From Glaciecola sp. (lineage in GTDB: Bacteria; Pseudomonadota; Gammaproteobacteria; Enterobacterales; Alteromonadaceae), in assembly GCA_029246415.1 (NCBI GenBank), contig JAQWNF010000007.1, positions 22,056 through 86,055 of the forward strand: 64,000 bases of DNA. The letters are read 5' to 3'. Positions 2,058 to 56,609 of the stretch are shown here, in pieces (position 1 is the stretch's first letter; every line of letters begins with the position of its first letter). The notes beneath the pieces are model-generated. The model was not told where the DNA came from, did no database searches, and worked only from the letters and a program-made list of their open reading frames with translations. The position numbers were made by a program, and so were the translations under genes.

Positions 2058-3590
2058 ATGGGTAAACCTGAAGTAGATCCAACCAAACAGGATGGTATGT
2101 TATCAGATGGCCCTGATTGGACATTTTCTTTATTATCACAATACGAAGATGAAATTGATCGAGTTGCCAAAATTTACAAACTCGATACCTATCCTAACCA
2201 AATAGAAATCATTACCGCCGAACAAATGATGGATGCCTATGCCTCTATCGGCATGCCAATCAACTATTCACATTGGTCATTTGGTAAAAAGTTTATCTCC
2301 ACAGAACAAGGGTACCGACGCGGTCAAATGGGGCTTGCTTATGAAATAGTGATTAATTCCGAGCCGTGTATTTCTTATCTAATGGAAGAAAATACGATTA
2401 CCATGCAAGCACTGGTTATTGCGCATGCATGTTATGGACACAACTCGTTTTTTAAAGGCAATTACCTATTCCAAACTTGGACGGACGCCAGCTCTATTAT
2501 TGATTATTTGGTTTTTGCTAAAAAATTCGTCTCCGATTGTGAAGAAAAACACGGCGTTGATGAAGTCGAAAAAATCATGGATTCTTGCCACGCCTTAATG
2601 AACTATGGGGTCGATCGGTATAAGCGTCCGAGTAAGATCTCTATGGTCGAAGAGCAAGCCCGTCTTGCTGACCGCGCTGAATACTTACAATCGCAAGTGA
2701 ATGATTTATGGCGTACCCTGCCTCAATCTAATGATATTCCAGAAGTAAAAGAAGTGCGCTTTCCTACTGAGCCACAAGAAAACATCTTATACTTTATTGA
2801 AAAAAAAGCCCCTTTGTTAGAGCCGTGGCAACGTGAGCTGGTGCGTATTGTTCGCAAAGTCTCTCAATATTTTTATCCACAAAAGCAAACGCAAGTCATG
2901 AATGAGGGCTGGGCGTGTTTCTGGCATTACCATATTCTCAATCACCTGTATGACGAAGGGAAAGTGTCTGATAGTTTTATTATGGAGTTTTTGCATTCAC
3001 ATACTTCGGTGGTCGCGCAACCTGATTATAACTCACCTTATTATTCCGGTATCAATCCCTATGCATTGGGCTTTGCGATGTTTATGGACATTAAACGTAT
3101 GTGTACCGATCCAACTCCAGAAGATTACGAGGAGATGCCAGATGTTGCTGGAAAAGACTGGCTCGAAACCGTACATTTTGCGATGAAAAATTTCAAAGAT
3201 GAATCCTTTATTAGTCAATTTTTATCGCCTAAACTCATTCGTGATTTTAAATTTTTTGCGATTAACGATGATATGAAACAAGATTATATTGAGGTGTCGG
3301 CGATCCATAATGAACAAGGATATCGCTTAGTTCGCGAAAAACTCTCAGCACAATATAACTTAAGTAATCTGGAACCGAATATCCAAGTGTATAACGTCGA
3401 TGTTCGAGGTGATCGCTCATTGACACTGCGCTACATTCCACAAAATGATATTCCGTTGGCCAAATCACAACATCAAGTGATGAAGCATTTACATCGTTTA
3501 TGGGGCTTTGATGTGAAACTGGAGCAAGAAAATGAGGATGGTACTATCACAACATTAGCGCGTTGCCCTAGCGAATTTGATAAAAAATAA
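2058..3590 (+). CDS. SpoVR family protein (YcgB)
   Basis: A 510-residue SpoVR/YcgB family protein. The frame is open further upstream, but the ATG at 2058 gives the same length as E. coli YcgB and lies one base after the yeaH stop, behind the purine-rich GAAGGA. The conserved N-terminal block (DWTFSLLSQYEDEI) and the histidine-containing segment IAHACYGHNSFFKGNY at about residues 117-132 are both present. SpoVR was named for a role in Bacillus spore cortex formation; in non-spore-formers its role is unclear, but it is regularly encoded with yeaG-yeaH, as here. Confidence 0.92.
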   Translation: MGKPEVDPTKQDGMLSDGPDWTFSLLSQYEDEIDRVAKIYKLDTYPNQIEIITAEQMMDAYASIGMPINYSHWSFGKKFISTEQGYRRGQMGLAYEIVINSEPCISYLMEENTITMQALVIAHACYGHNSFFKGNYLFQTWTDASSIIDYLVFAKKFVSDCEEKHGVDEVEKIMDSCHALMNYGVDRYKRPSKISMVEEQARLADRAEYLQSQVNDLWRTLPQSNDIPEVKEVRFPTEPQENILYFIEKKAPLLEPWQRELVRIVRKVSQYFYPQKQTQVMNEGWACFWHYHILNHLYDEGKVSDSFIMEFLHSHTSVVAQPDYNSPYYSGINPYALGFAMFMDIKRMCTDPTPEDYEEMPDVAGKDWLETVHFAMKNFKDESFISQFLSPKLIRDFKFFAINDDMKQDYIEVSAIHNEQGYRLVREKLSAQYNLSNLEPNIQVYNVDVRGDRSLTLRYIPQNDIPLAKSQHQVMKHLHRLWGFDVKLEQENEDGTITTLARCPSEFDKK

Positions 3591-3660
3591 TCGTAAACAA
3601 TAGCTTGGCAAACATAAGCGAGGTTGCTCGGAGTCTTTAGTTTGTACATCAACTGAAGTG

Positions 3661-4890
3661 TTAAATTGCATTGGATTGCCCTCTACTTGTTAACACTGAG
3701 TGATGTGCAAACATCATCACTATGCCACCAAGCATGGTAGCTAACGCAGCACTGACAAACGCGGTGACCGCGCCAGTGCCGTCTAGCCATAATAAGCCAG
3801 CACCATAATTGCCCACCGCCCCACCTAAGCCAAAAGCGAGACTCACATACAATGCTTGTCCTTGAGTGTGAAAACGCTTTGCAAAAAAGCGGTGAATAAA
3901 ACTCACCGAAGCGGCATGCGTGACACCAAAACTAAATGCATGTAACAGTTGTGACAAACTTAATAACCACCACGTATCTGGCGTATAAGCGAGCATTAAC
4001 CAACGCACTGATGTCAGCCACATCGAAATAATGATTAACCATTTGATCCCAAAGCGCTGGATCAGTTTGCCCGCCACTAAAAATATACCTATCTCAGCCA
4101 ATACGCCTAGGGCTAAAAAGATCCCAGTTTGCGTACCTGTATAGCCTAGCTCCGCACTATACAGAGCGAAAAAACTATAGAAAGGCCCCATGCTAATTTG
4201 CAATAAACCCGAAGCGCCAATAAAACAGATAAACGGTAGAGTTAATGCCTTTTGCCATTCGTTGCTGCTATCGCCTTGAGAAGTAGCGTGCGTATCGACC
4301 TGAACGCTGCGGATGGCCAATGTACTCAAAAACACGGCAAACAAAATACTGGTGGTACCATATAGCACCACCTCTGTCGAAGTCAGATCTAGTATAGCGC
4401 CCATTGCTACGGTAAAAGCGATAAACCCCAGGCTGCCCCACATACGTAAACGCGAGTAACGATGGGGATCGCCTTGTACACAATCCATAGTGACGACTTC
4501 AATCTGAGGCAAAATCGCACTGACAAAAATCATCATGCCTGATAGCGCAGCGGTAATTAACCAAAAATCGTTGCCTAAATAAGCTAAACAGGTACTGACA
4601 CAGCTTAACAATGCGCCAACCCTTAGCATTAATAGGTTTTTACCGACTTTATCCGCTAAATAAGACCATAGATTGGGTCCTAAGATCCGCGCAAGGGTAA
4701 TAATGGCAAAAAGCTCACCGATTTGTTGTGAAGAAAACCCGCGACCATCCAAAAATACACCTAGGTAGGGAATGATCACGCCAACATGTCCGAAATACAA
4801 AAAGTACGTCAAACCCAGCAGGAGGATATTTGAAGGTGATAACGCCTTGTCTAAGACGTTATCAGGATTACTAGAAGTAGATGTGTTCAA
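3661..4890 (-). CDS. MFS transporter, HcaT/3-phenylpropionate-permease type
   Basis: A major facilitator superfamily permease of about 409 residues with around twelve hydrophobic segments. An early GLTYFLYFGHVGVIIPYLGVFL segment and the central loop pattern resemble the MFS_1_like/HcaT group of inner-membrane permeases. The open frame extends to an ATG at 4944, but that would overlap aroC by 53 bases; the TTG at 4890, one base after the aroC stop, is the more likely start and keeps the two genes coupled. The substrate cannot be inferred: neighbours are shikimate-pathway and translation genes. Confidence 0.75.
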   Translation of the reverse strand: MNTSTSSNPDNVLDKALSPSNILLLGLTYFLYFGHVGVIIPYLGVFLDGRGFSSQQIGELFAIITLARILGPNLWSYLADKVGKNLLMLRVGALLSCVSTCLAYLGNDFWLITAALSGMMIFVSAILPQIEVVTMDCVQGDPHRYSRLRMWGSLGFIAFTVAMGAILDLTSTEVVLYGTTSILFAVFLSTLAIRSVQVDTHATSQGDSSNEWQKALTLPFICFIGASGLLQISMGPFYSFFALYSAELGYTGTQTGIFLALGVLAEIGIFLVAGKLIQRFGIKWLIIISMWLTSVRWLMLAYTPDTWWLLSLSQLLHAFSFGVTHAASVSFIHRFFAKRFHTQGQALYVSLAFGLGGAVGNYGAGLLWLDGTGAVTAFVSAALATMLGGIVMMFAHHSVLTSRGQSNAI

Positions 4891-4891
4891 T

Positions 4892-5995
4892 TTAAGGTTT
4901 GATTGCACCTGGGATGACTGGAGTCGTAGAAACCACACCGGCATTTTGTCCGCGGTGGCGTAACAAGTGATCCATGATCACAATCGCTGCCATCGCTTCA
5001 GCAATCGGTACCGCTCTGATCCCAACACAAGGATCATGACGCCCCTTAGTAATAACATCCGTGGTTTTACCATCAACAGTGATAGTTTCACCCGGTACAG
5101 TGATCGAAGAAGTAGGCTTTAACGCCATGTGAACTAGCACATCTTGTCCTGTAGAAATACCACCTAACACGCCACCGGCATGGTTAGTAGCAAAGCCTTC
5201 AGGGGTCATGCGGTCGCGATGTTCACTGCCTTTTTGATTGATAACAGCAAAACCGTCACCTATCTCAACACCTTTAACGGCATTAATACCCATCATCGCG
5301 TGCGCTAAATCAGCATCTAAACGATCAAAAACAGGCTCACCTAAGCCTACAGGCATATTGGTAATTTGTACGGACACCTTTGCGCCAATCGAATCACCTG
5401 ACTTTTTAAGGTCGCGCATGTACTCGTCTAATGCTTCTAATTTGCTTGCATCAGGGCAGAAAAAAGGATTTGTGTTTGTTATGCTGTGATCGATTGTCTC
5501 AGCAACAACTGGACCTAGCTCAGATAAATACCCCAGTACTTCAATACCAAACTCTTGTTTGAGGTATTTTTTGGCGATAGCACCAGCCGCAACGCGAATC
5601 GCTGTTTCACGTGCTGAGCTTCGACCACCACCGCGATAATCGCGGGTACCAAATTTTTGTTGATACGTATAGTCAGCATGACCAGGGCGGAAACGGTCGG
5701 ATATTTTTGAGTAATCTTGACTGCGTTGATCTTTGTTTTTAATCAACACACCGATACTCGTACCAGTCGTCACCCCATCAAATACGCCGGATAAGATTTG
5801 TACTTCATCGTCTTCACGACGCGCAGTCGTATAGCGAGAAGTACCAGGTTTACGGCGATCTAAATCAACTTGTAAATCTTCTTCAGTTAATGCCATGCCC
5901 GGAGGGCAACCATCAATAACACCACCGATGGCGATGCCATGCGATTCGCCAAAAGTAGTAACGGTAAATAAACGACCAAAAGTATTGCCTGCCAC
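4892..5995 (-). CDS. aroC: Chorismate synthase
   Basis: Chorismate synthase converts 5-enolpyruvylshikimate-3-phosphate to chorismate, the last common step of aromatic amino acid synthesis, using reduced FMN. The 367-residue protein begins [10 protein letters not shown] and carries the family signatures GESHG near residue 17, the [10 protein letters not shown] segment, [12 protein letters not shown] and the C-terminal [17 protein letters not shown] block. It lies nine bases downstream of prmB and is followed by the MFS permease, all on the minus strand. The prmB-aroC order is conserved in Gammaproteobacteria. Confidence 0.97.
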
Positions 5996-6004
5996 GATAA
6001 ATCC

Positions 6005-6940
6005 TTACTGTTGTTGCCAATAGTCGACTAAGGTTTGACGGTCTACTGCAAAGACCCCTTGTCCACCTTGTTCAAAATCAATCCACTGTACTGCTAACCC
6101 AGGAAAACGAGTTAGCATGTGTACAGACGAGTTACCCACTTCAACAAATAACCAGCCATGTTCAGTTAAATGCTCTGGAGCTTGTTGTAATATTGTCTCA
6201 ACAATATCCAACCCATCATGTCCAGCGGCTAATGCCAATGCTGGTTCATGTAAAAATTCTTGCGGAAGATCTGACATATCCTCGGCGTCCACGTACGGAG
6301 GATTAGAGACGATCAAATCATATTTTTGTCCCATCACGCCACTAAACACATCCGATTGCACCGGATAGACTCGCTCGGCTAAGCCATGCTCAGTAATGTT
6401 TAGTGCAGCCACTTCTAGTGCATCTTCGGAAATATCTAGTGCGTCTACTTGCGCGTGAACAAATTGGTGAGCCAACGCAATCGCGATACAACCACCACCG
6501 GTACACAGATCCATAATTAACTGCGGAGGCTGTGTTAACCACTGAGCAAATTCATCATTAATCAGCTCTGCAAACGGTGAGCGAGGGATCAGCACTCGAT
6601 GGTCGACATAAAACGGATAACCCGCAAACCAAGCTTGATTAGTCAGGTAAGGTAACGGCTCTAACGTGTTAATACGTTGTGTTAACAGCGCGACAACTTG
6701 TTCTTTTTCAGCTTGCACTAAGCGTGCGTTAAACAATGCATCTGATGTTTTTTGTGCCATATCTGGCGGTAAAGACACGCTAAACAACACGATCACCACC
6801 GCTTCATCCCAAGCATTATCAGTGCCATGACCAAAATATACGTCGGATTGATTGAGTTGTGAAGTACAGTAGCGCACCCAATCTAATATTGAGTGTAGTT
6901 GCCCATAATCTTCTTGAGGAAAGGAATATAGCGATGTCAT
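6005..6940 (-). CDS. prmB: 50S ribosomal protein L3 glutamine methyltransferase
   Basis: PrmB methylates a glutamine of ribosomal protein L3 using S-adenosylmethionine. The 311-residue protein has the SAM-binding motif DLCTGGGCIAIALA in its middle third and the catalytic NPPY motif (SNPPYVDAED) that contacts the target glutamine. An N-terminal helical domain precedes the Rossmann fold. It is divergent from smrB and upstream of aroC, a conserved arrangement that separates it from its paralogue PrmC, which is normally next to prfA. Confidence 0.95.
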   Translation of the reverse strand: MTSLYSFPQEDYGQLHSILDWVRYCTSQLNQSDVYFGHGTDNAWDEAVVIVLFSVSLPPDMAQKTSDALFNARLVQAEKEQVVALLTQRINTLEPLPYLTNQAWFAGYPFYVDHRVLIPRSPFAELINDEFAQWLTQPPQLIMDLCTGGGCIAIALAHQFVHAQVDALDISEDALEVAALNITEHGLAERVYPVQSDVFSGVMGQKYDLIVSNPPYVDAEDMSDLPQEFLHEPALALAAGHDGLDIVETILQQAPEHLTEHGWLFVEVGNSSVHMLTRFPGLAVQWIDFEQGGQGVFAVDRQTLVDYWQQQ

Positions 6941-7034
6941 AGTTAACAGGTTGTTCTTGTTACAGATAATAACAGGTATAATACCTTAAAAGCGCCGATT
7001 CGGCATGTTCAATTTTACGGATGCAGGGATTTTT

Positions 7035-7727
7035 ATGAAAACCAATCTCACCAAAGGCAATATCAAAGCATTTTTAGCAAAAAATGCAGCGTCTTCTGCA
7101 ACCGCAGGAAAGACAGGTATCAATAAAGGTTTTGCTCACCGCGGCACAAATGACACCCCAGACACATTGGAACCGCAAGTGTCTTTCGCTGAATTACATC
7201 CAGATATTACACCAATTAGGCAAGATAAAATCGCCCCGCTTTCGACGAAAAAAACAGAGCCTCATGCAGTGCTCTCAAAGTATGTTAAACAGCGAAAACA
7301 ACGCAGCCAATTAGCAAGCAGCACGAAACAAAGAAATGCTGAATTTACGTTTAGTGATGGTTTTGAGGCGCACTTTCCTGAAGATACTGCGTTGACGTGG
7401 CATCAGGGGGATAAACGTAGCGCGGCATTGCTCAAGCGCTGTCGTCGAGGAGACTTCGCCCCAGAGTACGAGCTAGATTGCCATGGCATGACCAAGGCTC
7501 ACGCAAAAGAAGAATTAGCTGCATTGCTCGTGCAAGCATACAAGCAAGATATTGCTTGTGTCAGTGTTATGCATGGTCACGGAAGTGGCGTACTAAAGCG
7601 CGCCATCCCTAACTATATTATGCAGTATCCGCATATCATTGGGTTTTGCCAAGCACCTAAACAATGGGGCGGTCAAGCTGGGATTTTAGTCCTACTTAAC
7701 GTCCCACAATTGTCTCAGTATGAATAA
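7035..7727 (+). CDS. smrB: Smr-domain endonuclease SmrB, ribosome rescue
   Basis: SmrB is recruited to collided ribosomes and cleaves the mRNA between them. The Smr domain is at the C-terminal end: the DCHGMTKAHAKEEL block and the MHGHGSGVLKR loop are both intact. The frame opens at 7005, but the ATG at 7035 is preceded by GCAGGGA at good spacing and gives MKTNLTKGN, so it is preferred (230 residues). This is longer than the E. coli protein (183 residues) because of a basic, low-complexity N-terminal extension at about residues 1-110. It is divergent from prmB, as in many relatives. Confidence 0.9.
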   Translation: MKTNLTKGNIKAFLAKNAASSATAGKTGINKGFAHRGTNDTPDTLEPQVSFAELHPDITPIRQDKIAPLSTKKTEPHAVLSKYVKQRKQRSQLASSTKQRNAEFTFSDGFEAHFPEDTALTWHQGDKRSAALLKRCRRGDFAPEYELDCHGMTKAHAKEELAALLVQAYKQDIACVSVMHGHGSGVLKRAIPNYIMQYPHIIGFCQAPKQWGGQAGILVLLNVPQLSQYE

Positions 7728-7776
7728 CAAGTAGGCGTCCTTGCCCAATGATCCTTGAAACTGTATTGCCCCAATG

Positions 7777-7809
7777 ATTGCCTGACACTGCTAATGGCAA
7801 TTATTTTTT
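7777..7809 (+). terminator. Possible rho-independent terminator of smrB
   Basis: ATTGCC and GGCAAT form a short stem with a 13-base loop, followed by a T-rich run. It sits 50 bases after the smrB stop. The stem is short and the T-run doubles as the end of the small convergent gene at 7801-7926. Confidence 0.4.
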
Positions 7810-7926
7810 ATCATCAGCACTGTTATGAATAAACATGTATGCATAATAGGCACACATAATAACCATAATTAAAATACCTAAAATAGAGCCCCATGCGACT
7901 GGATCAGTTAAGAGTAATTGCAACAT
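7801..7926 (-). CDS. Small single-span membrane protein, DUF3149-like
   Basis: A 41-residue open frame, MLQLLLTDPVAWGSIL and onward, preceded by AGGTGA at correct spacing from the ATG. It has a short N-terminal stretch, one hydrophobic segment at about residues 13-33 and a charged tail ending ADDKK. Length and layout (short N-terminus with LLTDPVAWGSIL, one membrane span, polar tail) match the small DUF3149 inner-membrane proteins found in marine Gammaproteobacteria. No function is known. It is convergent with smrB and stands alone. Confidence 0.6.
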   Translation of the reverse strand: MLQLLLTDPVAWGSILGILIMVIMCAYYAYMFIHNSADDKK

Positions 7927-8100
7927 AAATCACCTGTTTGTTTGTGTTGTGAACTTATATTCAAAGTATAATCACAAGCACAAACCAGACACTGATCAAG
8001 ATCAATATTTGCCATTCAGTATTCACAAATCAGGAGAAAGGATTGATACAGATCAATCTTAGTAGGTGAGAAATCGCCCTAGATATTTTTAAACGACTTG

Positions 8101-8742
8101 TTAGCCAAAGAAAAGCTGCATGAACCAACCTCGGTTAAGGTCATCCTCGCATCGTTTGAGCTGACCAGCATAGGCCAAAGAACGGTTTTTGACTTTATTT
8201 GCAACACCACCAAGCCATGCTTTTTTACGATAGGTTTTGCGTTTATAACCGCCCCACCCTTCGTGATAATTTAGGTATTGACCGTGAGCGTCCCATTTAG
8301 ATACGCCATTGATGCGGTGTGACTGACTGATAAACCAGCCCATAAAATCAATGGCATCAGCAAAGTCATCGCGGTCAGCACCACTGTTACCGGTCGCTTT
8401 TATATAGTCATCCCAGGTCATGGTTTTAGCTTGAGAAAAACCATAGGCACTGGATACTCTGCCCCAAGGGATCAAGCCAAAGAAAATGTAATCTTTAGGT
8501 GGTAGAGCTTTTGCTTTGAAAGAACTTTCTTGGTACATCATGGCCATAGGCACATGAATTGGTACGCCATATTTGTCATTCATATCGACCGCGGCATCAT
8601 ACCAATCGTCTTTTTCAAAAAAAATAGCGCACAGATCATCAGGTTTTTTAGGTGGGGAAACGCTGCATCCTCCTAAAAATAAGACGATAAGCAGTGAACT
8701 CAATATAATTGAAAAATATGTTAATTTATTTTGAACTTTCAT
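8101..8742 (-). CDS. Transglycosylase SLT-domain lipoprotein
   Basis: A 213-residue lipoprotein. The N-terminus has a basic start, a hydrophobic core and a lipobox LGGC (lipidated Cys at about residue 26), so it should be anchored in the outer membrane facing the periplasm. The body resembles lytic transglycosylases of the SLT fold: the putative catalytic glutamate is in MMYQESSFKAKA at about residue 71, followed by SSAYGFSQAK and a C-terminal NYHEGWGGY block. It would cleave peptidoglycan glycan strands. It appears monocistronic. Confidence 0.8.
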   Translation of the reverse strand: MKVQNKLTYFSIILSSLLIVLFLGGCSVSPPKKPDDLCAIFFEKDDWYDAAVDMNDKYGVPIHVPMAMMYQESSFKAKALPPKDYIFFGLIPWGRVSSAYGFSQAKTMTWDDYIKATGNSGADRDDFADAIDFMGWFISQSHRINGVSKWDAHGQYLNYHEGWGGYKRKTYRKKAWLGGVANKVKNRSLAYAGQLKRCEDDLNRGWFMQLFFG

Positions 8743-8792
8743 AAAACGCCATGCTCTATATCTGTGTAGTATGTGTTTCCCTGGAATATTCT

Positions 8793-8821
8793 AGCCTGAC
8801 CAAGTAGTCAGGCTTTTTTTT
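8793..8821 (+). terminator. Strong plus-strand terminator with no gene in front
   Basis: AGCCTGAC and GTCAGGCT form a perfect 8-bp stem with a six-base loop, followed by eight T residues on the plus strand. Genes on both sides are on the minus strand, where the hairpin has no T-tract behind it. It therefore looks like the end of an unannotated plus-strand transcript (see findings). Confidence 0.7.
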
Positions 8822-8923
8822 GCCTATTCATTTGTGCCTATTCCATGGCGTCTTAATTTATTAGTTTGAACTTATTGGTTTAAATTTACTAGTTCGTAGT
8901 TACTAGCGTCTCAACTAGCACAA

Positions 8924-10501
8924 TTAGTAAGTAAGGTAAGCACTCAAAAACTCACTAAAATCGACCGTATCGGCTGACTCAATCTCATGCTGGCGCTCAA
9001 TTGAAGCATGTTGCATTGTAGCAAAATCAGCTTGGCTATAATACTCAAAATCGCGCGCCAATAATTGTGCTTGATGTTGTTCGGCTAAACGTTTACCAAA
9101 CACAGAGTTGTCTTCATTATTTTCAAGCATCGTCTTTAACATCATCCCTGAAGGAGTGAGGTCTGGGTCAATGACTTTTTTGAATTCTCGCTCAACGGCT
9201 TTTGTGTATTCATTGGTTTGATTAGCTTTATCGTACAAGGTTGCTACTTGCGACATCTCCACAAACATATTGTCAGCCCATTTAGCTAATGTCACCTCGT
9301 TTGCACCATCGGCTAACATTAGACCAGGTTCGCGACCACGTAACACAACTGTCGTTAAATTTTGTTCGGTTTGACGCATCTCAGCTTGTGACATTGAGCC
9401 ACTAGGCTTTAATAAACAATACAACAAAAATACATCTAAGAAATAAATCTGATTTTGATTTACTCCAATAGGTGAGTACGGGTCGATATCCAACGCGCGC
9501 ACTTCAATGTATTCAACCCCTCGTTGTGATAGCGCATCTGTTGGCTTCTCTCCTGATTTGGCGATTTGTTTTGGCCTAATTGGAGAGTAGAGTTCGTTTT
9601 CAATCTGCAGTACATTTTTGTTTAACTGTTGATAATCGCCATTTTCACCCGCAGGAATATACGCATATTGCTGCGAAGGCGTACGAATTGCTTTGCGCAC
9701 TGAACGCACATAACCATGCAGATTATTATAACAAATATCGAGTGCAGATTGAGCAGAGTTGGTATAGCCCAAGTCAGACATTCTAAGCGAAGTCGCATAA
9801 GGTAAATACAACGTGCCTTTACCTAGTTTAGAAAAGTCATAACCAGGCTCTCTGCCATGTAAAAATGAACGACAAATCGCCGGTGATGCACCATACAAAT
9901 AAGGGATCATCCAGCACATTCGACGATAATTACGGATCAAAGAAAAGTAACTTTCAGAGATGGCCTCTTGGCTCAGCGGTTGACCATGCATTTCACACCA
10001 CAGATCCCAAAATGGCTTTGGCAAAGAAAAGTTGAAATGCACCCCTGATATCGCCTGCATCATACTGCCATAACGGTTTTTTAAGCCTACGCGGTAAACA
10101 TGTTTCATTTTACCTATGTTAGAACTACCGTAATGCGCTAGTACAATATCGTCTTCATCACCAACAAAACATGGCATAGATAACGGCCAAATTTGTTCAT
10201 TATTGATTTGTAAATACACATGCGTATGTATGTCTGCTAACTGCGACAACGTGGTACTAATGGTCGCAGAAGGTGGCGTGATGAACTCTAATAGAGATTC
10301 AGAAAAATCCGTCGTAATCGTCTCATGCGTGAGTGCCGATCCTAGCGCTTGTGGATGCCCTAACTGCGACAACTTACCATCTGAGGTGACTCTTAAACCT
10401 TCACGTTCAATGCCATGTTGAGTTTCACACAATGTACTTAGGCGCTTGTGTTTGTATAAAAACGCAACTCGCTGCGTAAATGAAGTCGTATCTGATATCA
10501 A
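8924..10501 (-). CDS. gshA: Glutamate-cysteine ligase
   Basis: GshA joins L-glutamate and L-cysteine in the first step of glutathione synthesis. The 525-residue protein has the full length of the proteobacterial type and begins with the conserved HGIEREGLRV block (about residues 29-38), which is part of the active site. HYGSSNIGKMKHVYR and the SGVHFNFSLP segment are also typical. It is transcribed alone, divergent from the Hpt gene across a 153-base intergenic region. Confidence 0.96.
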   Translation of the reverse strand: MISDTTSFTQRVAFLYKHKRLSTLCETQHGIEREGLRVTSDGKLSQLGHPQALGSALTHETITTDFSESLLEFITPPSATISTTLSQLADIHTHVYLQINNEQIWPLSMPCFVGDEDDIVLAHYGSSNIGKMKHVYRVGLKNRYGSMMQAISGVHFNFSLPKPFWDLWCEMHGQPLSQEAISESYFSLIRNYRRMCWMIPYLYGASPAICRSFLHGREPGYDFSKLGKGTLYLPYATSLRMSDLGYTNSAQSALDICYNNLHGYVRSVRKAIRTPSQQYAYIPAGENGDYQQLNKNVLQIENELYSPIRPKQIAKSGEKPTDALSQRGVEYIEVRALDIDPYSPIGVNQNQIYFLDVFLLYCLLKPSGSMSQAEMRQTEQNLTTVVLRGREPGLMLADGANEVTLAKWADNMFVEMSQVATLYDKANQTNEYTKAVEREFKKVIDPDLTPSGMMLKTMLENNEDNSVFGKRLAEQHQAQLLARDFEYYSQADFATMQHASIERQHEIESADTVDFSEFLSAYLTY

Positions 10502-50592: not shown

Positions 50593-51183
50593 CTACCGAT
50601 TGCGATAAGCACACAACACATTTTCACAAAATGCCGAACCTGCACTTGATAAAAAATAATGATTGGTGCTTGTAGCATAGACAAAGCCTCGAGCCACTAA
50701 AAAGCCAACGGCTTTATCCCATGAGTCAAAACGCAGCGCTTTGGCAATGGCTTTGTATTCCTCGTTTTGTGATATTTCAAACAAATCTTTCTCATTAAAA
50801 CCCAACGATACTTCACTCAACTGAGCCATATTGCGCCCGGTTATCTCAAAGTGACGCGCTAAAATTAACAAGATAGTTTGGACTTTTAATGCATGTTCGT
50901 CAGCTTCATCGGCGTCCCCATCAAACTGATTATTGATATAAAAAAACTCCCCTTGCACATGCTGCTCTAAACGCTTGCCAATGCATTGATATAATAGTGA
51001 AAACTCATCAATATACCGAAACAAATAGGTAAAGTGCGGATCCTCAAATAACACCCCAGATTGTTTGTTAAATTGCAGCTTAGGGATCACCTCCCCTTTG
51101 GTAAAACGTTGGTAAATTTGTGTACAAACGTCGTAATTGAGCTCGGCAAAGGTCCCTAATTTCTCAAGTTGTGTCGTATTCAT
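50593..51183 (-). CDS. Wadjet/Mks condensin subunit JetB-like (MksE)
   Basis: A 196-residue MukE/MksE-like protein. The FTYLFRYIDEFSLLYQCIGKRLEQ helix (about residues 51-74), the strand QGEFFYI right after it, and a C-terminal winged-helix end (RGFVYATSTNHYFLSSAG) match the KITE subunit MksE/JetB. This subunit binds DNA and the kleisin in the condensin complex. It is the last gene of the four-gene operon, five bases after jetA. The sequence is divergent, and the assignment rests partly on context. Confidence 0.78.
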   Translation of the reverse strand: MNTTQLEKLGTFAELNYDVCTQIYQRFTKGEVIPKLQFNKQSGVLFEDPHFTYLFRYIDEFSLLYQCIGKRLEQHVQGEFFYINNQFDGDADEADEHALKVQTILLILARHFEITGRNMAQLSEVSLGFNEKDLFEISQNEEYKAIAKALRFDSWDKAVGFLVARGFVYATSTNHYFLSSAGSAFCENVLCAYRNR

Positions 51184-51188
51184 TTGGG

Positions 51189-52649
51189 TTAATTCTCTTT
51201 TATTTCTGTGCTGACACAGCGAATTTTACGGTAGCGATAGGTTTGATGTGCATGCTGGATTTGCGCAAAACGATTCGTGGTCATAAAACGAAAGTTGTTG
51301 GCATTATTCGTTCTAGATTGCTGTTGACTCACCAAGACTTGCACGCCAGAAATCACATCATATAAGGCATATTCTGGAAATTCATCTTGTAAGCGTTGAT
51401 GCAGCATTTGAATAACATCATCGGTTGGCCGCAGCGTCATTTGCTGCAATACTTCACATAATCGCTCAAAGCGCTGTTGTCGCTCATCTGCTACTTTATC
51501 ATACCGAGTAAAACCGGACACTTGCGTAAAATCACCGATGTGCTTTAGATCCTGACAACGTGCATCGAGCTCATTGAAGATATTTTTGAAATAAGCATCA
51601 GAATGATGAAATGCAAAACCAACTGGCCGACGAAAGCCTTTTTGTTGGATCACAAAATCGGGCAATACAATGCCTTCACTGCCTAGTTTACTTTTGGTTA
51701 AACTGTTTGAATATGCATTATGTAAAGCGCTGCGAACAGAGTGTTGATAGAAATGCTCTAACGCATTAAAACGCTCAATACTGTCGCGTTGCTTATGAAT
51801 AAAGCGATTCACAGCTGATGCGGTTTGTTCAATCGGACGGTAAAAATTTAATAAACTTAATGCATAGCTTTGGCAACTATGGGCAAGGCGAACATGTTGG
51901 TGACTATCCAAAATTTGACTTATTTTTAGAATAATCGCATGCAAGCCTTCATACTCAGCATAAGTTGTATCTGGATTAAGGAACAATAATACCGGTAGCA
52001 TGTGGCGCTCATATAAATGCACAATCTCATCTAACCACACTTGCTTAGCACTTATATAGGTTTGTGTATCGATGTGGGTCTGTATACTTGTAGCTGTGAG
52101 TTGTTCGAGCTCTTGCCCGACCGACTGCATTTTGGTTACGTTTTGTTTGATATCACTTAACAAGCGCCCTAACTGCATGAATACATTATCCATAAACTCT
52201 ACAAAATCAGGATCTTCATCTAAAAAACTATACTGCCCAGATACTAATGCCTGTTGGGTTTGATTCAGAAATTGTAAATGGGTTTTAAGCTGGACATCAG
52301 TGAGCTTTTTAAACAGAGAAACATCACACAAGCGCACCACATCTAGCACTGAGCTTTGAAAATACAATCTAGTAGGACCTTGAGTAGCATCCACATCCAT
52401 AATGATATTCGCATTTAGCAAATTATCGGTGGCAAACGCAATACGCAAGCGTCGGCGCACATCGGCCTTAACATGCTGAGTATATAACTTGAGCTGCGTG
52501 AAAATCTGCTCTTCGGTAATATAATTGACTTTCTGGCTGTCCATTTGCTTGATGCATTCGGATAAAATCTTGCGATGAGTCAACATCGCTTGCAAGGTTT
52601 CAACGGTACCGAGTTGTTTATATTCATTTTTGAGCATACTTACAGCCAT
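51189..52649 (-). CDS. Wadjet/Mks kleisin subunit JetA-like (MksF)
   Basis: A 486-residue, largely helical protein. Its N-terminal region has a winged-helix look (ITEEQIFTQLKLYTQHVKADVRRRLRIAF, about residues 44-72), the centre is long helices (about 150-330), and the C-terminal part is compact. Length, helix content and position between the SMC-like and MksE-like genes match JetA/MksF, the kleisin that bridges the SMC heads. It overlaps jetC by 10 bases and is followed by jetB after 5, so synthesis is coupled. Confidence 0.75.
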   Translation of the reverse strand: MAVSMLKNEYKQLGTVETLQAMLTHRKILSECIKQMDSQKVNYITEEQIFTQLKLYTQHVKADVRRRLRIAFATDNLLNANIIMDVDATQGPTRLYFQSSVLDVVRLCDVSLFKKLTDVQLKTHLQFLNQTQQALVSGQYSFLDEDPDFVEFMDNVFMQLGRLLSDIKQNVTKMQSVGQELEQLTATSIQTHIDTQTYISAKQVWLDEIVHLYERHMLPVLLFLNPDTTYAEYEGLHAIILKISQILDSHQHVRLAHSCQSYALSLLNFYRPIEQTASAVNRFIHKQRDSIERFNALEHFYQHSVRSALHNAYSNSLTKSKLGSEGIVLPDFVIQQKGFRRPVGFAFHHSDAYFKNIFNELDARCQDLKHIGDFTQVSGFTRYDKVADERQQRFERLCEVLQQMTLRPTDDVIQMLHQRLQDEFPEYALYDVISGVQVLVSQQQSRTNNANNFRFMTTNRFAQIQHAHQTYRYRKIRCVSTEIKEN

Positions 52650-55522
52650 TGCGTTTGATCGGTCAATTCATCACTGAATGTCTCCGCCCCTGCCCAATAA
52701 ACACGGGCGCGCTCTTGATGATACGGCTTGTTGGTGTGCATGGCATCCATGACATGGCGTCGGCCAATCTTTGCTTGTAATTCGGCGCTAGTCGAATGTG
52801 TGCCTGCGGCCATCAACTTGAAACCCGACGCTGCTAAGTCATCGAGCCACCAATCAAATTGCCCAATATCAATATTGGCAATCTCGTCATAAACTACCGG
52901 TAGTGACGTCTCACAATCATGCGCCAATAAACGTTTTAACAAGATTTGGACTAATTTAATTTTGATCAGAGCAGCAGTAGAGTTACTTTGTTTTTTGTCT
53001 TCTTTGGTCGCTTTATTGTGTAATTGGACACGCGGTTCAAATGATTCAATGACTTTTTCCATCGTCAAGTTGAACGTGTCACTGCCTTTGAAAAAACGCT
53101 CGGCAAAGGCAACTAAACGCGCAAAAAAGTCATCCGACGGTAGCTGTTGGTTAAACAGATTTGTTTCATTGAGTTCGTGTACTAACGCCGAAAACTGTTG
53201 ATTGATCCCCACCTTAAACTCAACGGCTGCCACATTATTAATCGTGATACCAGAAAAATCACGATTGATCTGTTGTTCAAACTGTTTAATCAAATCGTAA
53301 TTTTGCACAATGATGGCTTTTTTAGTGCCAATGGTTTGGTTATGCTCTTCGATTTGGCGGTGTAACAAGGTACGCTGAGTATCGAGGTTGCCGTACACTT
53401 CGCTAATATCGTCGATTGCCGCCGAGATTTCCGGCCAAAAGGGTACCTCCCCAGTGATACCATGCTTATCAGTGATAATTCCCTTGTCTAAAAACCCACG
53501 AATTTGCTGTAACATTTGGCTTTGATATTGCCCTAAATGACTAGCACTCGTATTAAACAGCTCAAGCGACTCGGCATTGATATACCCATCAAATTCATTA
53601 CCTTTAGGTACGATTGCTAGCCATGTTTGATGTAACACTCTAAAGCTATTGAGTTGTTTTAGTAAGGATTGATGGGTGCGAATGTTATCTTGGCAACTAA
53701 GGTGCGCTTGCGTCGCTGCATCACGCTTGTCTTCTAACTTTTTCTTCTTAGTGGTACATGACTCAACATGTTGAGCCTGCTCTGTTTCTTTGCTTTTTAA
53801 CGCTAGAATCTCTTGGTGTAAAATATCGTAACGCCGCTGCATATACTCAGCATTATCTAGCGCCTCTAGATCCAATTCTAACACCGAAATTTGTTTTTTG
53901 AGTTGCGACACCGAATGCTCGGTATGTAACGGATCGGGATCCTCTATCGTTAAATCCGCTTTGTTTTTTTCTAGTGCATGAATTTCCGTTTCGAGCTTGT
54001 CTATTAACGCATCGAGATCTTGGGGTATAAATGCGACCCGTTCAACTTGGCTATCAAAAAACTGATAATGACTGGCAGCATCTTCAAATAAATCTGCAAA
54101 TTGCGCAATACTGGCCTTCTCTTGTTTATTGAGTCGTGTCCCTGGATTCGCTACGGCAAGGGTGGGATTGATCGAGTGCAACCAGTATAATTGTTCAGTC
54201 GATAACTGATTCGCGAGTGCTAGCTCGGTGTTTTCAGCATTATATCGTGCCCGTTTGAGTTGCTGTAAAAAATGCGCTAATTTGTTGTCTATTTTGGCTA
54301 TCTCAACCGCCCTATCCGCTTCACCCTGTTTGACTTTCAAGCGAGTTCGAACGTTGTACAATTCATCGCTCAACGCACTGTGAATATAGGTCAGGCTTTG
54401 TCCTGGAAATTCCGTTTTGAGCTTAGTAATATTGTTGAGTATTGTTTGGCATGAGGTCAGTTCTTTTTGCTTTTCGACCAAGCTACGCTTGTCTTGTTTG
54501 ACTGTCGATACCAGTTCATCCAACGTTTGCTTGGCATCAAAGTAAGCACTCTGCGCCGATTGCTGTTTATCAGCAAACAACTGCAACTGGGCTTGCATCT
54601 CAGCCGTACCGGTTTCCAACCACGCAATGCCTGGCTCCACGTCTGATAACATACTTAAATAAGTTAAAAACTTTGTCCGTGATTGAATAATTTTTTGATA
54701 ATCCGTTTCTAAATTAATAATATTGTTCAGTTGAGTTTCTTGTTGCTTGAGCTGTAAGTGCTTTTGTTTGAACTCACTAATGTCAAAAGACAAATGGTCT
54801 TGTGATGACTTTTTTCCTGTTTCTATTATGTTGGCCACCGCACTGATAAATGGCGTTTTATTTTTGCCCGTCGCGACAAACAAGAGTTTTATTAATGCGC
54901 GCAATGCATTGATATTTTGTGGCGTTTGCTCACTTAGCGGAAACAACGTATAAGTACTGTTATGCAGCGCCTTTTCATAAATGATAGACGCGACTTTGTG
55001 CTCATCTTTGGCTAGTTGCCACGTCTTGTCATGCTTTTGGATATAGTCATACACGGTTTTTTTGGATAGCTGTTCATTGCGCTGACCGATGCCGTATTCA
55101 TCATCTCCTTCAGTCCAAAACAAATGCTGGAGCTGCGCGTAAGGCAGCTGTGTAAACATCCGCTCGATTTTAAGACGCCCTGAGCCCGAGGCAGATATGA
55201 TTTGACAACAATGCGGCCCATCGAACAGGCGTTTCTCGTATTCTAGGATCAAAAAACTGTGCTTGGAAGGAAAATAGTGCTGAAACGTTTCTTCACTTTT
55301 ATACATCTCCCCATGAGAATCACTGAAACCAAAGTTCCGCTCTTGATGGCCAAACGAACATTCAGGCAGAAAAAACAGACGTATCGCATTGATTAAACTG
55401 GATTTACCCACATTACCTTGAGCCACCAACATACTATGAGCATCAACGTCTAATTCGGCATAAGCAAACTCACTTGAATCCACTGCAATGATCCGCTTAA
55501 CTCCAATAAATAACTGACTCAT
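52640..55522 (-). CDS. SMC-like ATPase JetC-like (MksB), anti-plasmid condensin motor
   Basis: A 960-residue SMC/MukB-like ATPase. The Walker A loop is AQGNVGKSSLINAIRLFF at residues 34-51 (GKSS at 39-42), and Walker B is VVYDE near D879-E880, with a D-loop-like NID after it. Between them lie long coiled coils (about residues 240-480 and 540-800), with a hinge-like part between. This is shorter than MukB or typical SMC proteins. In Wadjet, JetC hydrolyses ATP to extrude DNA loops until small circular DNA is detected. The gene follows jetD after 24 bases and overlaps jetA. Confidence 0.85.
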   Translation of the reverse strand: MSQLFIGVKRIIAVDSSEFAYAELDVDAHSMLVAQGNVGKSSLINAIRLFFLPECSFGHQERNFGFSDSHGEMYKSEETFQHYFPSKHSFLILEYEKRLFDGPHCCQIISASGSGRLKIERMFTQLPYAQLQHLFWTEGDDEYGIGQRNEQLSKKTVYDYIQKHDKTWQLAKDEHKVASIIYEKALHNSTYTLFPLSEQTPQNINALRALIKLLFVATGKNKTPFISAVANIIETGKKSSQDHLSFDISEFKQKHLQLKQQETQLNNIINLETDYQKIIQSRTKFLTYLSMLSDVEPGIAWLETGTAEMQAQLQLFADKQQSAQSAYFDAKQTLDELVSTVKQDKRSLVEKQKELTSCQTILNNITKLKTEFPGQSLTYIHSALSDELYNVRTRLKVKQGEADRAVEIAKIDNKLAHFLQQLKRARYNAENTELALANQLSTEQLYWLHSINPTLAVANPGTRLNKQEKASIAQFADLFEDAASHYQFFDSQVERVAFIPQDLDALIDKLETEIHALEKNKADLTIEDPDPLHTEHSVSQLKKQISVLELDLEALDNAEYMQRRYDILHQEILALKSKETEQAQHVESCTTKKKKLEDKRDAATQAHLSCQDNIRTHQSLLKQLNSFRVLHQTWLAIVPKGNEFDGYINAESLELFNTSASHLGQYQSQMLQQIRGFLDKGIITDKHGITGEVPFWPEISAAIDDISEVYGNLDTQRTLLHRQIEEHNQTIGTKKAIIVQNYDLIKQFEQQINRDFSGITINNVAAVEFKVGINQQFSALVHELNETNLFNQQLPSDDFFARLVAFAERFFKGSDTFNLTMEKVIESFEPRVQLHNKATKEDKKQSNSTAALIKIKLVQILLKRLLAHDCETSLPVVYDEIANIDIGQFDWWLDDLAASGFKLMAAGTHSTSAELQAKIGRRHVMDAMHTNKPYHQERARVYWAGAETFSDELTDQTQWL

Positions 55523-55546
55523 AACACTCCTTTATGTAAATAAACA

Positions 55547-56377
55547 TCAACGCTGTGCTGGAAGCACGTTCAGTAACGCTTCTTGCTCCATGAACTGACG
55601 AGTTGTGACAAATAATTCGTGTAACTCGCCCTGATTTAAAGACTGGCATAGAATAAGCGATTGCTGCCAATCAGTCACAGAGTTAGGGTTGAACGTAAAT
55701 AAATGCGCTAGCTTTGTTAACTCTGCCGGCGCTAAGAAAAGCACGCGTTTAGGATAACGCGCTTGAAGAATACTGGCAATATGCAACCCCTCATAATCAT
55801 AATCAAAGAAGCAATATAGGACTTCGTAAGGCGCTAAGATAGGCGCTAGTTTGTCATTCAATATGCGCTTTCCTCCTGCAAAATAGATATCACACTCATC
55901 AATAGGTACTGGACAATCAAAGTGTTCTAGGAAAGCTTGCCATTGAAAAAAGCAATCTTGGTTTTCAATTAACACCGCACACTTGGCCGGAGTATAAGGT
56001 AACGACACTAGTGTGTGATGTAACGTCGCTGCACAATGTAGTTGACGCTGTGGTAGTTGATCAGTCGTTACAGACATTGTGGAACTAGAAGGTAGTGCCG
56101 GAAAACACAACATATAAGCAGAATCGCACGTTACCGCGTGACTACTTTGTAGTAAATGCGCTGCTGCTGAAGCTCTGCTTTGTGCCGGTGTTGCTAGCTC
56201 TATTAATGTGTTGAATGCGGCTTGGTCCTTGATGGTAACTTGGTATTGTTTTTTATTTGCCTGCGTAATGGTAAACAAATCAGACCATTTATACTGAGGG
56301 GGTAACAATGTGATTAAACGCTCAAAATTCACAGGTTTATTGTCACTAATTTTTTGTAGCAAGGTGTGTAAGCTCAT
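55547..56377 (-). CDS. Toprim nuclease subunit JetD-like (MksG), short form
   Basis: A 276-residue protein with a Toprim-type nuclease site. Visible are LIEN with E138 (start at ATG 56377), FAGGK at about 167-170, and the metal site FDYDYEG with D192, D194 and G197. This is the E, GG, DxDxxG pattern of JetD/MksG, which cuts plasmid DNA in Wadjet systems. The EQEAL block near the C-terminus also fits. It is about 100 residues shorter than usual JetD, with a reduced N-terminal arm. The frame extends to 56428, but those 17 residues look non-natural. It is the first gene of the operon, an unusual place for jetD. Confidence 0.72.
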   Translation of the reverse strand: MSLHTLLQKISDNKPVNFERLITLLPPQYKWSDLFTITQANKKQYQVTIKDQAAFNTLIELATPAQSRASAAAHLLQSSHAVTCDSAYMLCFPALPSSSTMSVTTDQLPQRQLHCAATLHHTLVSLPYTPAKCAVLIENQDCFFQWQAFLEHFDCPVPIDECDIYFAGGKRILNDKLAPILAPYEVLYCFFDYDYEGLHIASILQARYPKRVLFLAPAELTKLAHLFTFNPNSVTDWQQSLILCQSLNQGELHELFVTTRQFMEQEALLNVLPAQR

Positions 56378-56609
56378 ACAGATAAAATCCAATTGGCATG
56401 CATGAGTTAAAAAGTACCACTTTTTCATTCGCTATTGAATGATTAAAGAATAGAACTATATGAATCGCCACCGATAACTTAGAGCTTATCTGAAGTTCTT
56501 TGGACTGCCCCCAGATTTATGGCCATATTCTGAAGGGCGCGTAGACAATACCGCAGAAATCGCTGGGTAGTTCACATTCGTCAGTTATTCATAGGGACAG
56601 TCACTTAGA

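Follow-up and report, generated by a model that had tools for sequence, protein, structure and literature searches.

A conserved Wadjet/MksBEFG-like operon in D-C-A-B order whose nuclease gene appears detachable from its motor

Introduction

Wadjet systems of types I–III (JetABCD) unite an SMC protein, a kleisin, a KITE protein and a Toprim nuclease in one operon in the order A-B-C-D, and the MksBEFG system of Corynebacterium and Pseudomonas, with the order mksFEBG, is named as a type I Wadjet (PMC10123090). MksBEF of the chromosomal type found in P. aeruginosa carries no nuclease. How Wadjet, MukBEF and MksBEF are related is described as unresolved in a review (PMC10586767), which suggests that MksBEF arose through loss of JetD. 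Here we describe an operon from a Glaciecola genome that holds the same kinds of genes in the order D-C-A-B. We consider, by analogy with the systems above, that its four genes likely encode a Wadjet/MksBEFG-like DNA motor and a nuclease partner that would cut invading plasmids (probability roughly 0.8), and we follow the fate of the nuclease gene among relatives, mainly in Marinobacter.

Results and discussion

Layout of the operon in the window

The operon occupies positions 50593–56377 on the minus strand of the window (the whole 64,000-nucleotide stretch of DNA that was analysed) and comprises, in transcript order, genes D (Toprim), C (SMC-like ATPase), A (kleisin) and B (KITE) (Table 1). 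The open frame of D reaches from 55547 to 56428; we placed its start at the ATG at 56377, which yields 276 aa and agrees with the start in relatives. D and C are separated by 24 nt, C and A overlap by 10 nt, and A and B lie 5 nt apart. The initial annotation had described four packed minus-strand genes in this subunit order, bound by overlaps or gaps of 5–24 bases; this layout was recovered in the reading frames, and its motif positions in our motif check. G+C content was 0.415 for the operon and 0.413 for the window. Toxin-antitoxin genes surround the operon (window 40446–60655), with AbiEi/AbiEii downstream, an HTH antitoxin, HTH-HipA and two ParE genes upstream, and RES further away. This context, to which the initial annotation had drawn attention, is real in the window but belongs to the window genome; many relatives have different neighbours and occupy chromosomal sites that recur among them.

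Table 1. Genes and motifs of the D-C-A-B operon in window coordinates
Feature	Position	Strand	Basis
D: predicted Toprim nuclease subunit, 276 aa, JetD/MksG/TopoVI-A/Spo11-like	55547..56377	-	model and conserved residues
Toprim DxD motif (D192, D194; DYD 192-194)	55796..55804	-	invariant in 38/38
Toprim Glu E138, predicted catalytic	55964..55966	-	invariant in 38/38
C-terminal FMEQE motif of D (its counterpart usually survives deletion of the gene in Marinobacter)	55580..55594	-	F, E, Q, E invariant in 38 aligned Toprims
C: SMC-like ATPase, 960 aa	52640..55522	-	invariant Walker A, QSNST and Walker B (19 aligned SMCs); hhalign head match to another SMC family
Walker A of C (AQGNVGKSS, residues 34-42)	55397..55423	-	motif check
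QSNST, ABC-signature position of C by analogy	52976..52990	-	invariant in 19 aligned SMCs
Walker B Asp-Glu of C (D879-E880)	52883..52888	-	invariant in 19 aligned SMCs
A: kleisin, 486 aa, predicted MukF-like fold	51189..52649	-	predicted model
B: KITE protein, 196 aa, MksE family	50593..51183	-	PF21980 MksE, 50.7 bits (cut-off 27)

Assignment of the four subunits

Structure comparison placed the predicted model of the Toprim protein nearest to MksG, TopoVI-A, JetD and Spo11, and the model and the alignment of 38 family members, in which E138, D192 and D194 are invariant, together indicate a JetD-type Toprim fold with a Glu and a DxD motif. The JetD_C profile was matched by 23 of these 38 proteins and by none in the window host's own genome. 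Matches of the PADLOC JetD1 model to the window Toprim (E = 0.0019) and to the Toprim of locus L009 (E = 1.5e-5) were weak, as was the hhalign match between the Toprim profile and the JetD of locus L111. The first 82 residues are modelled as helices with one strand pair and fall outside the span of the structure matches; the 38-protein alignment has no conserved Tyr there and therefore probably no topoisomerase-type CAP tyrosine in this region, while Y184 inside the Toprim domain is near-invariant (37/38) and is a candidate tyrosine. A Ser-His pair just N-terminal of the Toprim fold (S79-H80, window 56138–56143) is invariant in all 38 proteins.

The product of gene C is, by its motifs rather than by any profile, an SMC-like ATPase: G36, N37, G39, K40, S42, D879 and E880 are invariant in 19 aligned proteins. 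Its profile gave no useful hhalign match to E. coli MukB (E = 0.03) and reached E = 1.3e-4 (probability 53%) against an SMC encoded beside a type I JetD; PADLOC JetC1 matched the SMC of locus L008 weakly (E = 3.5e-7, best stretch residues 262–449). A single clade for all D-C-A-B SMC heads is neither shown nor rejected (support 50/7).

For the kleisin, the nearest structure to the predicted model was MukF, with a VIA score of 14.1 against 11.7 for unrelated helical proteins (about 2 higher) and a large rmsd. Pfam KicB (PF03882, MukF N-terminal) matched neither the kleisin, a difference from MukBEF, nor any other protein of the host genome. The KITE protein scored above the Pfam MksE cut-off (Table 1), and hhalign comparisons with single E. 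coli MukF and MukE sequences were weak. Foldseek returned no match at E = 0.001 or better for either the Toprim or the kleisin model, and PDB sequence searches with profiles of all four subunits, and with single Toprim and SMC proteins, gave nothing beyond chance or coiled-coil matches. We also considered that an N-terminal KITE motif, possibly a nuclease dock, might decay after loss of the Toprim gene; the data did not bear this out, the motif being not relaxed in Toprim-less genomes.

An MksBEFG-like operon in F-E-B-G order was found in Marinobacter (L131, positions 4229–9749); its SMC has 923 aa and its Toprim protein 303 aa. Beside that SMC, the 960 residues of gene C's product are ordinary, and the special shortness ascribed to it in the initial annotation falls away. 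The companion claim that the nuclease is about 100 residues short holds against JetD/MksG chains of 365–374 aa (7til), 368 aa (8b7f) and 411 aa (L111), but not against the protein in the MksG position of L131, than which it is just 27 aa shorter.

Relationship to described systems

The operon contains the gene set of a Wadjet in the broad sense: an SMC recognised from its motifs, a kleisin recognised from its predicted fold, a KITE and a Toprim gene. It differs from types I–III in its order, and the PADLOC JetA, JetB and JetC models had no match among the window proteins, JetD1 matching only weakly. The membership of the KITE in the MksE family is shared with MksBEFG. In the naming of that system, however, the order here is G-B-F-E, as opposed to mksFEBG (PMC10123090), the Toprim protein has 276 aa, and at sequence level A and C match solved structures only by chance or through coiled coil. 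MksBEF without nuclease resembles the C-A-B genes left in 11 D-less Marinobacter genomes described below, although in 14 of 15 such loci part of the nuclease gene persists next to that of the SMC, and the lineage is separate. Taken together, the conserved D-C-A-B order, the Toprim and kleisin models and the MksE-family KITE bear out the proposal of a divergent four-gene Wadjet/MksBEF-like system with its own order, and at the level of sequence D-C-A-B is a real, conserved lineage of the Wadjet/MksBEFG kind that stands outside types I–III by profile or order. Among the titles and abstract openings of openly licensed papers, we found none on DUF7281, on the D-C-A-B order or on serial in-place nuclease losses.

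Distribution and chromosomal settings

A scan of named genomes with two short exact patterns, which is not a census, yielded 64 loci (L001–L064), 43 of them titled Marinobacter and the rest mostly Colwellia, Pseudoalteromonas, Methylophaga, Halomonas and kin. Complete D-C-A-B operons made up 46 loci; three more followed this order but with the C or A frame disrupted, five were partial (consistent with contig ends), nine were C-A-B without D, and one (L063) was a short match. The four-gene arrangement is not due to chance, because these four genes recur in this order in 46 of the 64 loci, and the genome survey that the initial annotation had called for returned no order other than D-C-A-B in this set. 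More distant D-C-A-B loci occur in the window's class (L109, L110, L113, L114) and in Marinobacter (L129, L130, L132). SMC relatives were encoded in two of 72,556 plasmid records, both distant, and in none of 50,697 phage records.

Marinobacter loci lie mainly at two chromosomal settings, although several fit neither: one beside topoisomerase III-like, Sua5-like and chemotaxis-receptor-like genes, the other beside an NADH:flavin oxidoreductase-like gene (all named by reading sequences). Recurring sites are less typical of fast-turnover defence, and suggest long residence rather than rapid turnover. In three loci (L033, L049, L051) the Toprim gene is present and the SMC or kleisin frame is broken, through real decay or sequencing error. 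L129 and L130 represent a deeper D-C-A-B subfamily in Marinobacter (SMC 26–28% identical), which co-occurs with the main system in genomes G510 and G524.

Loss and relocation of the nuclease gene in Marinobacter

Among 124 Marinobacter genomes searched, 73 gave a match and 62 were counted as carriers of this SMC, including three broken or cut SMCs (G496, G505, G526) and one at 38% identity (G523). The 11 distant matches set aside as SMC-negative fell into two groups: four genomes (G449, G479, G484, G548) hold a second D-C-A-B subfamily, whose own Toprim, at 31–32% identity, lies beside the SMC, and seven (G455, G469, G472, G481, G493, G498, G539) matched over a short stretch of other frames, the frame being 925 aa long in six genomes. 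In the 62 carriers, the Toprim gene was full-length and adjacent in 45, cut by a contig end in two, present only elsewhere in four (one frame broken) and absent in 11, so that the nuclease gene beside the SMC has been lost or relocated in 15; absence in draft genomes may reflect missing sequence, and the two genomes with a cut Toprim (G505, G528) were not scored as losses. The Toprim was present in 49 of the 62 SMC-positive genomes (one broken frame) and in none of the 62 SMC-negative ones, although four of the latter carry the distant Toprim next to the distant SMC and a further four matched weakly over part of the protein (Fisher p = 9e-24 over 122 genomes, G505 and G528 left out and kinship ignored).

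The C, A and B frames are open in all 15 loci without an adjacent Toprim gene, and in 14 of them a Toprim remnant bearing MEQE runs into the SMC start. Flanking gene families were common to other D-C-A-B loci in eight of the nine Toprim-less loci compared (the exception being L058), and no new gene was seen to recur at the position vacated by D. A 65-row tree requires 11 changes to explain the 15 unlinked loci and 10 to explain the 11 Toprim-free genomes, and a 60-row tree gave seven; both trees were built quickly and some of their branches are weak, and the counts should be taken to mean "several". We infer from these sequences that the Toprim gene has been lost repeatedly in Marinobacter with the core genes kept.

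In three of the genomes with a relocated Toprim, the layout suggests that two loci underwent reciprocal loss. At one site, G433 (L058) has the intact core next to what is left of a Toprim gene; at another, an intact Toprim gene precedes a 47-residue remnant of the SMC. M. excellens HL-55 (L043) and isolate M30B21 (L054) carry the core at the first setting and a Toprim at the second. On one side, the neighbours of these two Toprims match genes that other loci have 0.8–5.7 kb ahead of their SMC; on the opposite side they match a gene about 5 kb past the SMC start in L015, L020, L024 and L050, i.e., just beyond C-A-B. Their Toprims fall in a 22-row group of largely second-setting Toprims (SH-aLRT 96, quick tree), and their cores group with the first-setting cores L023 and L045; the L054 Toprim frame is broken near its end. 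The simplest reading of the sequences is that these three genomes held two copies of the system that lost opposite parts, leaving one set split over two places, and the separated Toprim and core may cooperate in trans. The fourth genome with a relocated gene (L011) has a solitary Toprim at yet another location.

Selection on the core genes

Our main dN/dS comparison covered 39 of the 57 loci L008–L064 for the SMC and 37 for the kleisin and KITE, nine Toprim-less loci among them, and left out 18 loci (not Marinobacter-like, partial or broken) and L001–L007. When each of the nine Toprim-less loci was set against its two nearest Toprim-bearing relatives, dN/dS was 0.039–0.164 for C, 0.025–0.149 for A and 0.048–0.228 for B; core genes are under purifying selection in Toprim-less loci, where measured. 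Between pairs of D-less loci, core dN/dS was 0.035–0.063 (L127/L128, L027/L125, L022/L123). The pair L008/L011 had a higher dN/dS, at 0.12–0.14. L127 and L128 (dS 0.66–1.02, dN/dS 0.042–0.063) share the sequence that flanks the deletion on either side, and with this common junction the constraint on the core most likely post-dates the loss. The junctions of L027/L125 and L022/L123 are not clearly shared, and their dN/dS may cover time before the loss. Median SMC dN/dS was 0.090 for pairs with and without Toprim versus 0.066 for pairs in which both have it; this slightly higher value and the unrelaxed KITE motif are also compatible with recent losses.

A detachable nuclease and its alternatives

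By analogy with Wadjet, as outlined in the review cited above (PMC10586767), A, B and C would form a dimeric motor that extrudes DNA loops, and on a small circle this motor would bring D into an active state in which it cuts. D would then be the effector of a motor with a second use, and the motor without the nuclease would have a function of its own, probably DNA organisation as for MksBEF. The dependence is one-way, as this D was not found without this C in the Marinobacter genomes searched and C is often without D, which is expected if D is the effector of a dual-use motor. In Marinobacter the Toprim gene is frequently absent or displaced, yet C, A and B remain intact and constrained; repeated loss, an own function of the motor and a nuclease acting in trans from another locus all become plausible, and the nuclease appears, from sequence comparison, detachable. 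That D-C-A-B amounts to a fourth Wadjet lineage, whose motor has a cellular task of its own, repeatedly sheds its detachable nuclease to become a plain condensin and can also be re-armed in trans by the leftover nuclease of a second copy, is a bolder proposal that we regard as evenly poised.

That the Toprim-less loci are instead decaying defence operons, with a motor that has no function of its own, seems unlikely to us. The losses are scattered close to the tree tips, and the unrelaxed KITE motif and the higher median SMC dN/dS of pairs with and without Toprim would suit such decay, but the open frames in all 15 loci and the low dN/dS of L127/L128 at considerable dS, across a common junction, speak for a maintained core. 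Somewhat harder to sustain is a mainly chromosome-organising, MksBEF-like condensin with the Toprim as an accessory for DNA topology or repair rather than plasmid defence. Presence in 62 of 124 Marinobacter genomes, many at recurring sites, fits that idea, as does retention of C without a full-length Toprim in 11 of the 62, in which the A and B frames are open and, in those measured, subject to purifying selection. Yet the system is missing from the other 62, and the KITE family of the window was not found in nine other same-genus genomes searched. Moreover, the window host already encodes ScpA, a subunit of SMC-ScpAB, and has no MukF match, and D-C-A-B is therefore an added system. The N-terminal region of D also has no conserved Tyr that a topological role might call for, with Y184 staying a candidate.

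OLD nucleases combine an ATPase and a Toprim domain in a single polypeptide, whereas here the two are on separate genes. A Toprim nuclease paired with an ATPase of the OLD, RecN or Rad50/Lamassu kind would account for the PADLOC LmuB match (E = 0.0013, residues 471–786) and for the OLD Toprim chains at Foldseek ranks 8, 9 and 12. We nevertheless hold it to be highly improbable: a non-condensin ATPase and small proteins without a MukF/MukE fold were the outcomes that the initial annotation had named as fatal to its own proposal, and we found a predicted MukF-like kleisin and an MksE-family KITE encoded alongside, and a Toprim model that best matches MksG, TopoVI and JetD.

If the reading of a motor with a detachable nuclease is right, Marinobacter seems to repeat the proposed JetD-loss step in a different lineage, and would be a place to watch and test the step from Wadjet to MksBEF gene by gene, its Toprim-less members being living examples of a defence machine turning into a chromosome organiser. 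Among related species some have the nuclease and others retain only a remnant of its gene, so that what the bare motor does, and whether a relocated nuclease acts in trans, would be directly testable. The operon would also add a conserved anti-plasmid candidate that PADLOC defence profiles do not name.

Related SMC-nuclease loci in C-B-A-D order

Systems with a DUF7281-type Toprim and the order C-B-A-D (L104–L108) are related to D-C-A-B through the Toprim (hhalign E = 1.8e-8) and the SMC head (E = 9.6e-11), but differ in order, in the length of the SMC (1,225–1,282 aa) and in kleisins that gave no hhalign match to the D-C-A-B kleisin. This C-B-A-D family (e.g., L105, positions 2455–8806) was found in five of 60 relatives searched and is hardly named by PADLOC. 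In L104, a Toprim gene of the D-C-A-B family (positions 1643–2476) lies 68 bases ahead of a C-B-A-D operon with a DUF7281-type Toprim of its own, making a five-gene locus with two nuclease-like genes.
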